DNA of 23,104 nucleotides from positions 1-23,104 of IMG/VR virus record IMGVR_UViG_3300046028_002730; one strand, written 5' to 3'. The notes under the pieces are model-generated. The model saw only the letters and a list, made by a program, of their open reading frames with translations, did not search any database and was not told the origin of the DNA. The DNA is from a virus. The position numbers and the translations under genes are program-made. Of this stretch, positions 3,685 to 13,433 are shown one piece after another (within the stretch, counting starts at the first letter, position 1; every line of letters starts with the position of its first letter).

Positions 3685-4797
3685 TTATAACTCCGCTAAA
3701 ATAGCTTTTTTACCAGTGAAATCTTCCCAACGCTTAACGATTACATCGCAAAACTTAGGGTCAAATTCCATAATAAACGCTTGTAAACCATGTTTTTCAG
3801 CAGCAATTAAGGTTGATCCTGATCCACCAAAGTAATCAGCAATCGTTTTGGCAGAAACATTAAATCGTTTGATAATCCATTCCATCAAAGATACAGGCTT
3901 TTGTGTTGGGTGTACTCGATTGGTCTTTTCAGATGCTTGGGTAAATTGTCTTACAACGCTTCTAAAGTTTGCCCATGCCAACTCGCAATCGGTTTGATCT
4001 GATTGGCCATTGTTTTTATCCCATACCAACCAACATTCGCTGTCAGGCAATACGGAGCAATAATAGTTTGCACCCCACCATATTTGCTTGGCATCAGGAT
4101 ATAAGCCATAAATCAAATTAAACGCATCTTTGGCCACATCAGGGTTATCGTCACCCATAATGTCTGTGCCGTAATTAGCTTTCAATACTGACGATTTGCT
4201 TACAGCGTTCATGCCGTATGGTGGATCTGTATGAATTAAATCAGGTTTTGTGCCATTCATCAGCTTTTCAATATCATGCAACATTGTGCTATCACCGCAC
4301 ATAAGCCTATGATTTCCAAGGATATATATATCGCCAACCTTGGTTTTTGGTTCTTCAGGCAATTCAGGCACAGCATCTTCGTCTGTAAGGCCTTCTTCAA
4401 TCTCAGGTGCTAGTAGCTGATTTAGCTCTTTATCATTAAAACCTGTAAGTGATAGATCAAAGTCTGCATCCTCTAAATCTTGTAGCTCTAGCTTTAAAAA
4501 GTCCATATCCCACCCAGCGTTCATGGCTAGTTTGTTGTCAGCAATAATGTAAGCCTTCTTTTGGCTTTCAGTCATATCTGAACAATCTATTGTGGGTACT
4601 TTGTCTAGGTTTAGCTTTTGGGCAGCCATTAAACGGCCATGCCCTGCAATAATGCCTACCCCGTCTACCAATATAGGGTTGCGAAAGCCAAATTCTTTAA
4701 TGCTTGCGGCAATTTGGGCAACCTGTTCAGGACTGTGGGTTCTGCTGTTCTTTGCGTAAGGGATTAGCTTATCTACAGCAACTTCTTTAATTTGCAT
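3685..4797 (-). CDS. ParB-domain / DNA methyltransferase fusion
   Basis: A 370-residue fusion. Residues 1-90 are a ParB/Spo0J-type nuclease-like domain (VDKLIPYAKNSRTH, then GHGRLMAAQKL at 52-62 and IIADNKLA at 84-91). Residues 155-370 are an amino-methyltransferase of the N6-adenine/N4-cytosine class: catalytic motif IV DPPY at 191-194, RVHPTQKP at 294-301 and the SAM-binding FGGSGST at 323-329. Motif IV before motif I is the beta-type order. It probably methylates phage DNA at a specific site, giving protection from host restriction or marking DNA for a phage process. No cognate restriction enzyme gene is visible, so this looks like an orphan enzyme. It sits immediately before the terminase genes. 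The start ATG at 4797 is preceded by GGTTAAAT, a weak ribosome site. Confidence 0.93.
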   Translation of the reverse strand: MQIKEVAVDKLIPYAKNSRTHSPEQVAQIAASIKEFGFRNPILVDGVGIIAGHGRLMAAQKLNLDKVPTIDCSDMTESQKKAYIIADNKLAMNAGWDMDFLKLELQDLEDADFDLSLTGFNDKELNQLLAPEIEEGLTDEDAVPELPEEPKTKVGDIYILGNHRLMCGDSTMLHDIEKLMNGTKPDLIHTDPPYGMNAVSKSSVLKANYGTDIMGDDNPDVAKDAFNLIYGLYPDAKQIWWGANYYCSVLPDSECWLVWDKNNGQSDQTDCELAWANFRSVVRQFTQASEKTNRVHPTQKPVSLMEWIIKRFNVSAKTIADYFGGSGSTLIAAEKHGLQAFIMEFDPKFCDVIVKRWEDFTGKKAILAEL

Positions 4798-6668: not shown

Positions 6669-7476
6669 AGACTTTTTTTGCTACCTGTGTAGGGGTGATT
6701 GCTTGTAAAACACTGCAAATTTGCACACATTGATAATCGTACCCAGCTTCAGGTCGAGTAAAACAATATGAACAAGGCTCAGAAACTGGTACAGCATGGT
6801 TATTGATTGCCATGTTAAACACAAATTCCTGTGGGTATTGGGCTGTTAAAGTAATAAAAGGCGTTTCAAACAACCCAGCTAAATGAGCAGGGCCACTATC
6901 ACCCCCAATAATTAACTTTGAATCTGCAATAATTTGCATCACTTCTTGCGGTGTTTTGTCATAATACGCCTTAATCGGCAATTCATAAAAAATACTATGC
7001 AAATCTTGCATATCTGATTTCTGTGCTAAAACATACACAAGCAAACCTTTATCTAATAGCTGTATAGCTAGTTTTCTCCAATGTGCTTTAAGCCAAGTTC
7101 TTGAGGGATCAGCAGAAAAAGGTGCAAGCAACACAAAATCGTTTTTAGTTGCGTTTATTTTGATGGTTTTAGGTCTAGCACCATGACAAGGTTCAAAATT
7201 AAAATGGTGGGCTAAATTTTTAATGTACCAATCAATTCGTGAAGGAATGTTTTTTAAATACCCTTGGCGTGTTTGGTTGTCATAACTCCAATTGGCATCA
7301 AAAACAGGTTCATCTTCATTTTTTAATAAAAGATTTGGATGTTCTATTGGTAGCCATTGACCATGTTTAGTGTGAAATACAACTTCGTGTCCTTGGTTTG
7401 CTATTCCACACGCTGCGTACATTCCACAAATCGCATCCCCAATTCCTTGTGCGTTTAAATAAAACGATATTTTCAT
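6649..7476 (-). CDS. Heptosyltransferase-like glycosyltransferase, family GT9
   Basis: A 275-residue GT-B type glycosyltransferase. The N-terminus GIGDAICGMYAACGI (11-25) matches the acceptor-side GxGD motif of heptosyltransferases, and GGDSGPAHLAG (191-201) is the hallmark nucleotide-sugar-binding motif of GT9. It is somewhat short for a typical LPS heptosyltransferase (about 320-350). Four cysteines, CSYC (235-238) and CVQIC (250-254), form a likely metal-binding cluster near the C-terminus, also seen in some GT9 proteins. It overlaps RusA by 4 bp (ATGA) and the methyltransferase by 20 bp. Likely role: modification of a glycan by the phage, for instance host surface sugar to block superinfection, or a virion/DNA glycan. 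The substrate is not determined. Confidence 0.85.
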   Translation of the reverse strand: MKISFYLNAQGIGDAICGMYAACGIANQGHEVVFHTKHGQWLPIEHPNLLLKNEDEPVFDANWSYDNQTRQGYLKNIPSRIDWYIKNLAHHFNFEPCHGARPKTIKINATKNDFVLLAPFSADPSRTWLKAHWRKLAIQLLDKGLLVYVLAQKSDMQDLHSIFYELPIKAYYDKTPQEVMQIIADSKLIIGGDSGPAHLAGLFETPFITLTAQYPQEFVFNMAINNHAVPVSEPCSYCFTRPEAGYDYQCVQICSVLQAITPTQVAKKVYEMLDL

Positions 7477-7835
7477 AAACCCTTTAAATCAAGAACATCA
7501 ATAAGTACCAAACAACCGCCACCTTTTTTAATTTCACCTCTTTGAACTATTAACACATCGATTTGGCTATCATCTTCGTAAACCCCAGCATCCGCTAAAG
7601 CATCCCATAGGGCTTTAATGCGGTTATCTATGTCTTGTTTGCGTCTATCCCTTGGGTAAAGTGTAACTTGCATTTCTAGGCGTTTTTCACCTAGTTTAGG
7701 CACACAATTGGCAATTACATAATCTTGCACTTGAAGTTTGAATTCTCTACCAGCTTTGCTGATACCCATCCTATTCCTAAAAATAGTACGGTAACTGTTA
7801 ACCGATGGGGGTAGGGGTAGGTTAAGCACTATCAA
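7473..7835 (-). CDS. rusA: RusA-family Holliday junction resolvase
   Basis: A 120-residue RusA-type endonuclease. LPLPPSVNSYRT at the N-terminus and the acidic cluster DIDNRIKALWDALADAGVYEDDSQID (68-93) are diagnostic; the catalytic aspartates correspond to D70, D88/D89 and D93, with K74 as the conserved lysine. The family cuts Holliday junctions symmetrically, resolving recombination and branched replication intermediates before packaging. The start is a TTG at 7835, chosen because GGAG lies 7 nt upstream and the residues MIVLNLPLPP fit the family; a GTG two codons later is the alternative. It overlaps the 3' end of the HNH gene by 14 bp and the glycosyltransferase start by 4 bp. Confidence 0.93.
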   Translation of the reverse strand: MIVLNLPLPPSVNSYRTIFRNRMGISKAGREFKLQVQDYVIANCVPKLGEKRLEMQVTLYPRDRRKQDIDNRIKALWDALADAGVYEDDSQIDVLIVQRGEIKKGGGCLVLIDVLDLKGL

Positions 7836-8103
7836 GTAATTTCTCCGTCATTTCAAGTAAATCTTCTTGTCCAATTTGATAGTGTTTTTCAAACCCTTTT
7901 GCACCAAGACCATGTACACCTGTATTTCCTCGGTGGTGTTCAATACATAATCCGATAAATGGTGCATTGGCTCTTTTACCGCCAAATCGCCTAATGTGGT
8001 GAATTTCAACCCCACTATCGTAAGGCTGACCTAAGTGTCGGCATAACGCACATCCAAGTCTTGCAACTTTTGAGTATTGTTCTTTTTCAGCTTTTGTTGG
8101 CAT
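7822..8103 (-). CDS. HNH/Ref-like nuclease
   Basis: A 93-residue protein with C18/C21 (CALC), the paired histidines EIHHIRRFGG (H35, H36), GLCIEHHRG (C53, H56, H57) and GVHGLGAKGFEKHY (64-75). This arrangement matches the HNH-type core of Ref (recombination enhancement function of phage P1), a RecA-dependent nuclease, and the related phage HNH proteins often found next to rusA. It is compact and seems complete for the nuclease domain, lacking the disordered N-terminal arm of P1 Ref. Role: cutting DNA during recombination or DNA repair. It overlaps RusA by 14 bp, consistent with joint function. A general HNH endonuclease is the alternative name. Confidence 0.85.
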   Translation of the reverse strand: MPTKAEKEQYSKVARLGCALCRHLGQPYDSGVEIHHIRRFGGKRANAPFIGLCIEHHRGNTGVHGLGAKGFEKHYQIGQEDLLEMTEKLLDSA

Positions 8104-9163: not shown

Positions 9164-9193
9164 AGTATACTTAAGTTTGCTTAACTGTGTAAA
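9164..9193 (-). promoter_or_regulatory. Leftward promoter with TTAAG-N4-CTTAA operator
   Basis: On the - strand a -35 box TTTACA (9193-9188; 5 of 6) and -10 box TATACT (9169-9164; 5 of 6) are separated by 18 bp. Between them is a perfect dyad TTAAG-TTTG-CTTAA at 9171-9184 (+ strand reading). A repressor bound to it would block RNA polymerase. The promoter overlaps the stop codon of the small gene 9181-9366 and serves the 8765-9133 gene and those behind it. Confidence 0.7.
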
Positions 9194-9366: not shown

Positions 9367-9467
9367 TATTACTTCCTTTTTGGTGAACGCACCTAGCCCT
9401 TTCCTAGATGCCTTCAATAGTTCTTCCTTTTCGGAGCCACTACACCCGTCAGTCATTCGTTGAATAG

Positions 9468-9515
9468 GCACTAACTTCGCCACCTATATTTGAGCTTTTG
9501 CATCAACTTTCCCCC
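9468..9515 (-). other. Noncoding block similar to the element at 11213-11278
   Basis: On the - strand GGGGGAAAGTTGATGC (9515-9500) is followed 22 nt later by AAGTTAGTGC (9477-9468). The early operon has GGGGTGAAAGCGGATGC at 11213-11229 and the same ten bases AAGTTAGTGC at 11269-11278. Both precede small genes. The stretch 9367-9515 otherwise holds only the possible GTG extension of the 61-residue gene. Confidence 0.35.
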
Positions 9516-9576
9516 AGTTGCTCTTGTATCTTAATCGCTGGTGTCGGTTCCCGCCCAATTAAGACCAAGCAGAAAT

Positions 9577-9723: not shown

Positions 9724-10257
9724 TTATTCCAGTTCAGGCCATATCATTTGAAAATTATCAGGAAACAGGCTTTTTCGGGTAATTAGCCCATGTGATTCTT
9801 TTTCTAGGGTTGCTGCCAACATGACTAGCTTATCCATAGGAATCTCGCTGTTTTGCCACATAGATACGGCTGGTACAGATACCCCAACTAGCTTGGATAT
9901 ACGGGTTGGCCCACCTAAAAGTTTAATTATTGCGTATGTGTTTAATGGTACTGGCATTTTTTCCACTTTTTTAGTTCCTCTGCTTTGCCTATTTTTTTTG
10001 ACTTTATCTTGCATATTTTCTGCATGAGTGCCTAAAAACAAGTGGTTTGGGTTTACGCATAAAGGTACATCGCATTTATGTAAAACCAACATACCCTCAG
10101 GTATTTCGTTGCCATGCAAAATATAAGATGATCTATGGGCATAAATTTCATTGCCAAGCGTGAAATGCCCGTACTTGTAATTGTTTGCACCACTCCAAAG
10201 CCAACAACCATCAGGTTGTTTAACCACTTTTTTCATGAATTTATTTAAATCTTGCAT
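9724..10257 (-). CDS. Fusion of HNH endonuclease and Cro/YdaS-type regulator
   Basis: A 177-residue two-domain protein. Residues 15-95 are an HNH_3-type homing-nuclease module: DGCWLWSGANNYKYGHF, YAHRSSY, VLHKCDVPLCVNPNHLFLGT (H60, C62, C67, N69, H72) and ENMQDKVKKNR. Residues 101-177 match Cro/YdaS-like transcription regulators: LLGGPTRISKLVGVSVPAVSMWQ (113-135) is the helix-turn-helix, and the tail LITRKSLFPDNFQMIWPEL is the family's closing motif. Met101 (position 9957) is preceded by GTGGA and could give a free 77-residue regulator. The gene diverges from the early operon; a near-operator (10256-10269) covers its start, suggesting autoregulation. There is no Shine-Dalgarno sequence, and the best -10 box ends 6 nt before the ATG, so the mRNA may be leaderless. 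Both domains look intact. Confidence 0.88.
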   Translation of the reverse strand: MQDLNKFMKKVVKQPDGCWLWSGANNYKYGHFTLGNEIYAHRSSYILHGNEIPEGMLVLHKCDVPLCVNPNHLFLGTHAENMQDKVKKNRQSRGTKKVEKMPVPLNTYAIIKLLGGPTRISKLVGVSVPAVSMWQNSEIPMDKLVMLAATLEKESHGLITRKSLFPDNFQMIWPELE

Positions 10258-10291
10258 AAGCTATCTTAACTTATTTACAAAATAATTGCAA
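10256..10291 (-). promoter_or_regulatory. Leftward promoter of the regulator gene, with operator-like dyad
   Basis: On the - strand TTGCAA (10291-10286) and TAAGAT (10268-10263) are 17 bp apart, each 4 of 6 to consensus. The + strand segment 10256-10269 reads ATAAG-CTAT-CTTAA, one base from the perfect operator, and overlaps both the -10 box and the ATG at 10257. Transcription would start at or within a base or two of the ATG, giving a leaderless message as known for phage lambda cI. Confidence 0.5.
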
Positions 10292-10298
10292 ATAATTG

Positions 10299-10327
10299 TT
10301 GACATGATGCTTAAGTTGACTTAATAT
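10299..10327 (+). promoter_or_regulatory. Early rightward promoter with TTAAG-N4-CTTAA operator
   Basis: A consensus -35 TTGACA (10299-10304) and -10 TAATAT (10322-10327) are separated by 17 bp. A perfect dyad TTAAG-TTGA-CTTAA fills 10311-10324, overlapping the -10 box. The promoter faces the early operon starting at 10370. Divergent to it is the gene of the Cro-type regulator, the expected binder of the dyad. Confidence 0.82.
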
Positions 10328-11320: not shown

Positions 11321-11440
11321 ATGAAATCAAGTAAATGTTGTAACCATGATTGCAATGAGGGTAGAAATTGCCCACTAAGGAAAAGTCAAAGTTTTCTTGA
11401 TTTTATTAAAGCAATATTAAGAAAGGTGCTAGGAAAATGA
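11321..11440 (+). CDS. Small cysteine-rich phage protein (39 aa)
   Basis: Thirty-nine residues: MKSSKCCNHDCNEGRNCPLR, then a basic hydrophobic helix (SFLDFIKAILRKVLGK). The cysteines C6, C7, C11 and C17, with H9, fit a small zinc knuckle; the motif CNxxCNxGRNCP recurs in tiny phage early proteins. A GAGG ribosome site lies 9-12 nt before the ATG, and its stop overlaps the next start (ATGA). Too short for routine gene callers, but the coupled overlap and cysteine pattern support it. Function unknown. Confidence 0.75.
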   Translation: MKSSKCCNHDCNEGRNCPLRKSQSFLDFIKAILRKVLGK

Positions 11441-12072
11441 GTTTTTTAGTAGCCAACATTCCACCAGTTAAATGCTTTGTGCGTAAGGAGTTTCTTTATA
11501 ACCACGAATCAGGTCACGGGGAACTAGAGCCTTGCGTATGGATGACGGCCAAAGCAATCAAGGGCCAAGCATTTCGCATTGAATCTATGTTGACTAATTA
11601 CGGTGCTTTGTACGACAAACTACCTATTAGTGCGTATGTGTGGAAAGAAGTAACTGATCCACTACCGCTAGATTTCTTACAGATTTGGGATTGTTTGTCT
11701 TATGACATGGCCGTAATTGAAAAGTCTAATCTGCGTGGTTTAAAGGTCAAATACTTTGGCAAAGATAAACAGTTTCATTTTGGTAACTACTTGTTCACCA
11801 TTGACTTTGCTAGTCCTGATGCCAATCGTTTAGATACTAGCTTTAGTGAGGGTGTAGAAGAACATAAGTCTTACAACTTTATTAAGCTTGACAATGGTCA
11901 GTTTGCTTGTCAGCCCAATAACCGTTGTCTTTGGTACGATGTATCGCTAGTGCCAGCCGTGCTTAAAACACCTGATTTTAAGATACCAACAGAAATCTAT
12001 AGCGTTGAAAACCATGCCAAGTGGACTGCTAAAGATGAGTGGTTTTATAACTTTGTGGAAATAAAAGAATGA
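11437..12072 (+). CDS. Conserved-looking phage early protein, unknown (211 aa)
   Basis: A 211-residue protein with an N-terminal block VKCFVRKEFLYNHESGHGEL and a following VWMTAKAIKGQAFRIESMLTNYGALYDKLPISAYVWK, which I recall from early regions of other tailed phages (sometimes marine), without a known role. The rest is beta-rich and aromatic (FGNYLFTIDFASPDANRL, NNRCLWYDVSLVP), suggesting a compact globular enzyme-like or binding fold. No catalytic motif is visible. It overlaps the cysteine-rich gene upstream and a tiny membrane gene downstream by 4 bp each. Confidence 0.85.
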   Translation: MSFLVANIPPVKCFVRKEFLYNHESGHGELEPCVWMTAKAIKGQAFRIESMLTNYGALYDKLPISAYVWKEVTDPLPLDFLQIWDCLSYDMAVIEKSNLRGLKVKYFGKDKQFHFGNYLFTIDFASPDANRLDTSFSEGVEEHKSYNFIKLDNGQFACQPNNRCLWYDVSLVPAVLKTPDFKIPTEIYSVENHAKWTAKDEWFYNFVEIKE

Positions 12073-13262: not shown

Positions 13263-13433
13263 ATGAACACATACAGCAAACACGCAGAAGTAACAATGGT
13301 TGCCTACAACGGCAAATCTTACAAATCTTCTTCAAAAGAAAATGTAATTACTGGTTTAGTTGAAAAAACTACCGCCAAATACATTTGGATTAGAAGTTAT
13401 GAAGATGGACAAATTTGGAAAGCCGTTAGATAA
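13263..13433 (+). CDS. Small early protein, unknown (56 aa)
   Basis: Fifty-six residues: MNTYSKHAEVTMVAYNGKSY, then KSSSKENVITGLVEKTTAKY and IWIRSYEDGQIWKAVR. The ribosome site AAGGAG is 6 nt upstream, a strong signal. The pattern suggests a small beta-rich domain. It is the first gene behind the second operator-controlled promoter, so strong, regulated production is expected. It is not recognised as a known family. A GC-rich hairpin (13441-13454) follows the stop. Confidence 0.8.
   Translation: MNTYSKHAEVTMVAYNGKSYKSSSKENVITGLVEKTTAKYIWIRSYEDGQIWKAVR

Follow-up and report, generated by a model that had tools for sequence, protein, structure and literature searches.

An HNH nuclease coding sequence inserted in frame at the start of a Cro-type regulator gene in an aquatic phage, and its candidate role as a Cro-guided homing gene

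Results

Architecture of the fusion gene. We analyzed a window of 23,104 nucleotides (viral record IMGVR_UViG_3300046028_002730, positions 1 to 23,104), whose source is an aquatic phage. On the minus strand of the window lies an uninterrupted open reading frame that joins an HNH_3 nuclease domain, through a short linker, to a DNA-binding domain of the Cro/YdaS type (Table 1). The HNH_3 family of Pfam (PF13392) matched the N-terminal part well (E value = 1e-10, 41.5 bits versus a cut-off of 24.8), and the motif LHKCDVPLCVNPNHLFLGTHAENMQD of this domain is intact. The C-terminal part matched P22_Cro (residues 108 to 143, E value = 6.6e-6, 26.2 versus a cut-off of 30.2) and YdaS (residues 110 to 169, E value = 1e-4), both slightly under the Pfam cut-offs; the unfused homologue L174 exceeded the P22_Cro cut-off (33.1), and the Cro domain of the fusion is 96% identical to the unfused protein of L004. 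Both parts were also recovered with PHROGs, as an HNH endonuclease (residues 5 to 101, 3e-31) and as a transcriptional repressor (residues 95 to 176, 4e-8). These matches bear out the preliminary description, which had read the gene as an HNH_3 module and a Cro-like regulator in one unbroken frame.

Table 1. Positions of the features discussed (numbering of the window)
Feature	Positions	Strand	Basis or remarks
HNH-Cro fusion gene, 177 aa	9724..10257	minus	Open frame from ATG at 10257 to stop codon at 9726-9724; two full-length relatives
HNH_3 nuclease domain, residues 1-97	9967..10257	minus	Pfam, PHROG, free-standing relatives, dN/dS
HNH_3 Pfam core, residues 39-83	10143-10009	minus	Pfam
Linker VEKMPVPL, residues 98-105	9943..9966	minus	Alignment; pLDDT <50 at 97-103
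Internal ATG (Met101), followed by CCA	9955..9957	minus	Equals start of unfused MP-type cro genes (ATG CCA TTA AAT)
Cro/YdaS-type DNA-binding domain (predicted fold), residues 106-177	9727..9942	minus	Pfam, PHROGs, model, structure matches
Proximal operator TTAAG-ATAG-CTTAT, one mismatch	10256..10269	minus	Overlaps likely -10 (TAAGAT, 10268-10263) and fusion start codon
Distal operator TTAAG-TTGA-CTTAA	10311..10324		Inside divergent promoter (TTGACA at 10299, TAATAT to 10327) of rightward genes
Operator TTAAG-TTTG-CTTAA	9171..9184		Spacer of minus-strand promoter-like site, upstream of replication gene 9133-8765
Operator TTAAG-CTAC-CTTAA	13201..13214		Directly past a TTGACA, upstream of ORF at 13263
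Betaproteobacteria-1 RNA (RF02932)	9444-9565	minus	Rfam, full-length, 99.4 bits, E 6e-18; downstream of fusion gene
RecA-dependent nuclease Ref match (PF16786)	7822-8103	minus	34.8 bits; small gene, second HNH-type nuclease
RusA-like resolvase	7473-7835		Adjoins Ref-like gene
ParB-N domain and N4/N6 DNA methylase in one gene	3685-4797	minus	Adjoins terminase genes
PHROG 3704 match (annotated ferredoxin, moron/host takeover)	11437-12072	plus	3e-84; early region

An AlphaFold model of the protein gave two confident domains (mean pLDDT 87) separated by a disordered linker at residues 97 to 103. Its top structural neighbors in the PDB were the Cro of Xfaso 1, YdaS, and P22 Cro for the C-terminal part and I-HmuI and I-PpoI for the nuclease part; the probabilities of these matches ranged from 0.7 to 0.99, with every E value above 0.01, as expected because the query was a two-domain protein. 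A model of a viral YdaS superposed on the Cro part over 72 residues with a TM score of 0.90. Sequence matches and model thus agree on a P22-Cro/YdaS-type fold for residues 106 to 177, the fold that had been proposed for this part from the sequence.

Fused and unfused relatives. Scans of viral contigs with profiles of the fusion, of Cro, and of the HNH domain yielded two more full-length fusions, from separate metagenome samples (L002, 88% identity; L003, 79%), and no others; a genome scan gave one Cro match and no fusion, and among isolate phages and plasmids the near-full-query matches that were examined (Mx9, 2050H2, and Pseudorhizobium) have ordinary helix-turn-helix tails. The Cro-profile scan of viral contigs reported 367 relatives. 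About 145 further distinct loci, taken from two scans, were read, and these carry the same regulator without the nuclease, leaving three fused alleles only. The unfused set includes alleles nearly identical to the fused ones (93 to 96% in cro and up to 99% in the 5' flank), and the recognition helix of Cro is identical between fused and unfused proteins. The HNH-Cro fusion is real.

Residues H60, N69, and H72 of the nuclease domain, with the residues that flank them, are shared by the three fusions and free-standing relatives, the nearest of which are 53 to 56% identical to the HNH part of the fusion. In most of the free-standing HNH_3 relatives that we read, a conserved K.R...G linker leads into a C-terminal module of the form KLT..V..IR......LA..YGVS...I..I..G..W, and some end differently. 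In the fusion, Cro occupies the place of this small helix-turn-helix, with which its own helix-turn-helix aligns. Because Cro sits where the module sits, the replacement of one DNA-reader by another is the natural description of the gene.

A fixed insertion site before cro. Comparison of vacant (unfused) and occupied (fused) alleles showed that the HNH coding sequence, about 310 bp, sits between the promoter/operator of cro and its coding sequence, and that the point of insertion is one and the same nucleotide throughout. The cro gene of unfused phages begins either directly at or a few bases past ...GTTAAGAT.NCTT or a close variant of it; in the three fused phages, the start codon of HNH follows immediately 3' of the same CTT, and cro sequence returns some 310 bp on. 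The clearest pair is L002 (occupied) and L034 (vacant), which agree up to GTTAAGATACCTT and again from AACGCAACTGCAATAATTAAACTTTTAGGTGG, the HNH sequence being the sole difference between these points; 59 of 62 bases match 5' of the insert, and the first 38 bases past the cro start codon match exactly. The pairs window/L005 and L003/L174 follow the same pattern save for a few bases at the junctions. In the 5' flank of the window, 150 bp are 99.3% identical to unfused L005, and the adjoining 1,350 bp are 99.2% identical to unfused L011. All three pairs therefore display presence and absence of the insert at one fixed site, which is a mark of homing genes. The preliminary description had suggested that the regulator gene might have captured the nuclease; these alleles reverse that order, with the nuclease gene inserting into cro at one fixed nucleotide in several lineages.

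The comparison with L011 also placed an abrupt boundary of exchange close to the insertion site: identity with the window is 97 to 100% over about 1.8 kb upstream of cro and 80 to 85% in cro, and there is no similarity directly downstream.

Many vacant alleles (L198, L204, and others) begin with ATG CCA TTA AAT (MPLN...). The linker differs between the three fusions except for Met101-Pro102, which all three share and which equals this native start, ATG CCA. Since the fusions retain the two codons, the first insertion probably took place immediately 5' of the start of an MP-type cro, whose original start codon would be Met101; free Cro might also be translated from this codon. In L003, cro opens with codons like those of MP-type alleles and the remainder matches L174, so that its 5' end looks, from a few bases, like a short co-converted tract.

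Several unfused Cro genes (L084 at 208-426, L234, L236, L245, and L246) have a longer start (MEK/MDK...), in which ATG GAA AAA or ATG GAT AAA precedes the usual first codon. The ATG GAA AAA form resembles the GTG GAA AAA that stands directly before Met101 in the fusions, and these genes are possibly remnants or precursors of the insertion.

Movement of the insert and selection on it. We placed the fused alleles in a cro tree of 147 sequences, where they are scattered, each adjoining unfused alleles. A single clade of fused alleles was rejected (AU test, P value = 0.00025), and supported branches force three changes; a pairing of the window with L002 alone was not rejected by the same test (P value = 0.32). 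Nucleotide identity in pairs with L003 was 0.86 and 0.88 for HNH versus 0.67 and 0.70 for cro (bootstrap, P value < 0.001), and between the window and L002 it was 0.86 for HNH versus 0.79 for cro (P value = 0.04). Synonymous divergence (dS) of the window's cro from unfused L005 was 0.17, and that of its HNH from the HNH of L002 was 0.90. Horizontal spread incongruent with the tree of the host gene, another mark of homing genes, is thus seen both in the topology and in the greater similarity of HNH than of cro. These results indicate that the insert either moved between cro backgrounds or was lost from very many of them, and movement appears to be the simpler reading.

Between the fusions, dN/dS of the HNH part was about 0.06 to 0.13, a sign of strong purifying selection, and the three sequences hold neither frameshifts nor stop codons in it. 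Together with the intact motif, this low ratio indicates that HNH is maintained as a working protein.

Operators and promoters. Exact copies of TTAAG-N4-CTTAA occur in the window at 9171, 10311, and 13201, all in or beside promoter-like sequences, and allowing up to one mismatch gave six sites where 1.95 were expected. With the one-mismatch copy at 10256, the earlier claim that operators lie at several promoters of this phage holds. The proximal and distal operators are kept with at most one mismatch (the proximal one with one mismatch) in 109 of 109 distinct upstream regions, which are related to each other and hence do not amount to 109 independent cases. This conservation of the palindrome at the promoters speaks indirectly for operator binding and repression by Cro. 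In the alignments of vacant and occupied alleles, the HNH coding sequence starts at the edge of the proximal operator.

The fused protein should bind the operators of unfused Cro because the recognition helix is the same in both. This agrees with the idea, put forward in the preliminary description, that Cro could recruit the nuclease to operator DNA. A putative cro promoter was recognized by eye (TTGCAA-17-TAAGAT, below the threshold of the promoter scan); since the start codon lies about where transcription would begin, the cro message is probably leaderless.

No Rfam intron family was found between 9100 and 11500, and the insert of about 310 bp consists entirely of nuclease coding sequence and is too small for an intein splicing domain; we rejected both an intron and an intein as candidates.

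Discussion

Relation to known systems. Homing endonucleases, bifunctional nuclease-repressors, and Cro proteins are each already known. Homing endonucleases are modular, and some, such as I-TevI, double as repressors through their own DNA-binding domain. I-TevI is the GIY-YIG endonuclease of the T4 td intron and acts as both homing endonuclease and autorepressor, binding its homing site and its operator equally and cutting only where a cleavage sequence is suitably spaced (PMC2988022). Like the fusion, it combines a nuclease domain, a linker, and a DNA-binding domain in one protein, and binding of an operator over its own promoter with distance-dependent cleavage is a likeness that we predict for the fusion by analogy. 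Unlike the fusion, I-TevI is intron-borne and has a DNA-binding domain of its own, whereas the fusion has an HNH_3 nuclease, lies where no intron was found, and has the whole product of the invaded gene as its DNA-binding domain.

Free-standing HNH_3 phage endonucleases (PHROGs 1872, 3593, and 826; mob-type) share with the fusion a homologous nuclease domain, an intact motif, and insertion in phage genomes, but the majority of those inspected have a small C-terminal helix-turn-helix (KLT..IR..GVS..W), where the fusion has Cro, in frame with the target gene. The HNH homing nickase I-HmuI (PDB 1u3e), which our model matches structurally, also has an HNH domain followed by DNA-binding modules (a helix-turn-helix/NUMOD region), although an intron encodes it and no phage regulator serves as its DNA-binding part. 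P22 Cro, YdaS (CP-933P and Rac), and the Cro of Xfaso 1 resemble residues 106 to 177 in fold and sequence and are likewise short early regulators at a divergent promoter, but they stand alone, without the N-terminal HNH. CapR of the PLE satellites is a repressor related to the DNA-binding domains of homing endonucleases (PMC10448857) and is a further case in which DNA-binding parts pass between such nucleases and phage regulators. The direction is opposite: CapR is the DNA-binding domain of a nuclease without the nuclease, and the fusion is a nuclease that gained a regulator. No report of an HNH domain joined to YdaS or Cro was found in the literature searched, a limited set that left most subscription papers outside and is thus weak evidence of novelty.

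A homing gene guided by Cro. The account that we favor, and hold to be fairly probable, is that a homing-type HNH gene exploits the product of the cro gene it invaded as its DNA-reader; here we infer cleavage, its position, repression by the fusion, and spread by homing. The HNH gene, in frame and lacking a stop codon, would have entered an autoregulated cro downstream of its promoter/operator and upstream of its coding sequence, and the usual C-terminal helix-turn-helix of the nuclease would thereby have been swapped for Cro. Because it takes the place of that module, Cro would have two jobs: bound to TTAAG-N4-CTTAA, it would repress its own and other early promoters, and it would also position the nuclease beside the operator. 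A vacant allele in a relative that infects the same cell has its operator directly against the 5' end of cro. The nuclease would nick or cut that end, after which repair would copy HNH into the allele. In the carrier, the insert shifts the 5' sequence of cro about 310 bp away from the operator, which would protect it. The preliminary description had imagined the protein cutting competitors that lack the site or differ in it; the expected target is better put as the vacant cro allele, because there the operator abuts the cro coding sequence, while the insertion parts the two in the carrier.

The use of the same insertion nucleotide in several phage lineages, as homing endonuclease genes do, speaks for this account, and other observations speak against it. 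At least three more operators, each flanked by its own sequence, remain in the carrier, and a nuclease tethered by Cro could nick the carrier genome at these sites unless it needed specific flanking sequence; the sequence to the left of the proximal operator is the same in the carrier. Conservation of silent sites is no higher at the 5' end of cro than in the rest of the gene (0.44 versus 0.45), so no constrained cleavage site is visible there. Only three fused alleles are known, and a passive insert could also spread by ordinary recombination among mosaic phages.

Such recombination in the early region is the means of spread under an alternative that we regard as unlikely, in which HNH was captured once and serves regulation, through an extra DNA contact or the arrangement of the dimer, or as a weak nickase at its own operators, with no homing. 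The strong mosaicism of these phages around cro and the in-frame expression from cro's own promoter fit this alternative, and purifying selection suits any protein function. A useful regulator, however, might be fixed somewhere, and the fusion is rare against the unfused alleles inspected, even in near-identical backgrounds; one insertion nucleotide with tight boundaries on both sides suits targeted insertion instead, and the nuclease motif has stayed intact.

We give still less credence to the proposal that HNH-Cro is a weapon with which the carrier excludes related phages in the same cell by cutting their operator regions, the spread of the insert being a by-product. The DNA of unfused relatives should indeed be bound, because these phages share the operators and an identical Cro recognition helix. 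The carrier has the same operators, however, and could protect itself only through spacing or flanking sequence, as the homing model already holds; the proposal is also hard to separate cleanly from homing with exclusion of markers.

That HNH is an inactive or decaying passenger, with free Cro made from Met101 doing the work, agrees with the native cro start retained in three of three fusions but is very improbable in view of the low dN/dS, the intact catalytic motif, and the undisrupted frame in three independent sequences. An assembly or sequencing artefact, which the derivation of the window from a metagenome might suggest, is excluded because L002 and L003 come from other samples: three different sequences (79 to 88% protein identity) on three contigs have the same architecture and junction, and with them the objection of an assembly error, raised in the preliminary description, falls away.

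Returning to the Cro-guided homing account, we tentatively suggest that the fusion may exemplify a homing endonuclease that has no DNA-reading domain of its own and uses the product of the invaded gene, with the operator as anchor of the homing site, expression autoregulated, and the carrier protected by spacing. If so, a selfish gene would gain its target, a promoter, autoregulation, and possibly self-protection through one in-frame insertion, and the regulatory specificity of a phage would become tied to the cutting of related phages. The natural set of vacant and occupied alleles makes the model of a Cro-guided nuclease directly testable.

Neighboring genes and RNA. Other features of the window are listed in Table 1. 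With the small Ref-like gene, which adjoins that of a RusA-like resolvase, the window has a second nuclease of the HNH type, and one gene adjoining the terminase genes combines a ParB-N domain with an N4/N6 DNA methylase. The early region contains the gene matching PHROG 3704. Sequence similar to RF02932 lies 3' of cro in many unfused relatives as well (72 to 100% identity), and this match may be a clue to a betaproteobacterial host and to phages as a home of the RNA.
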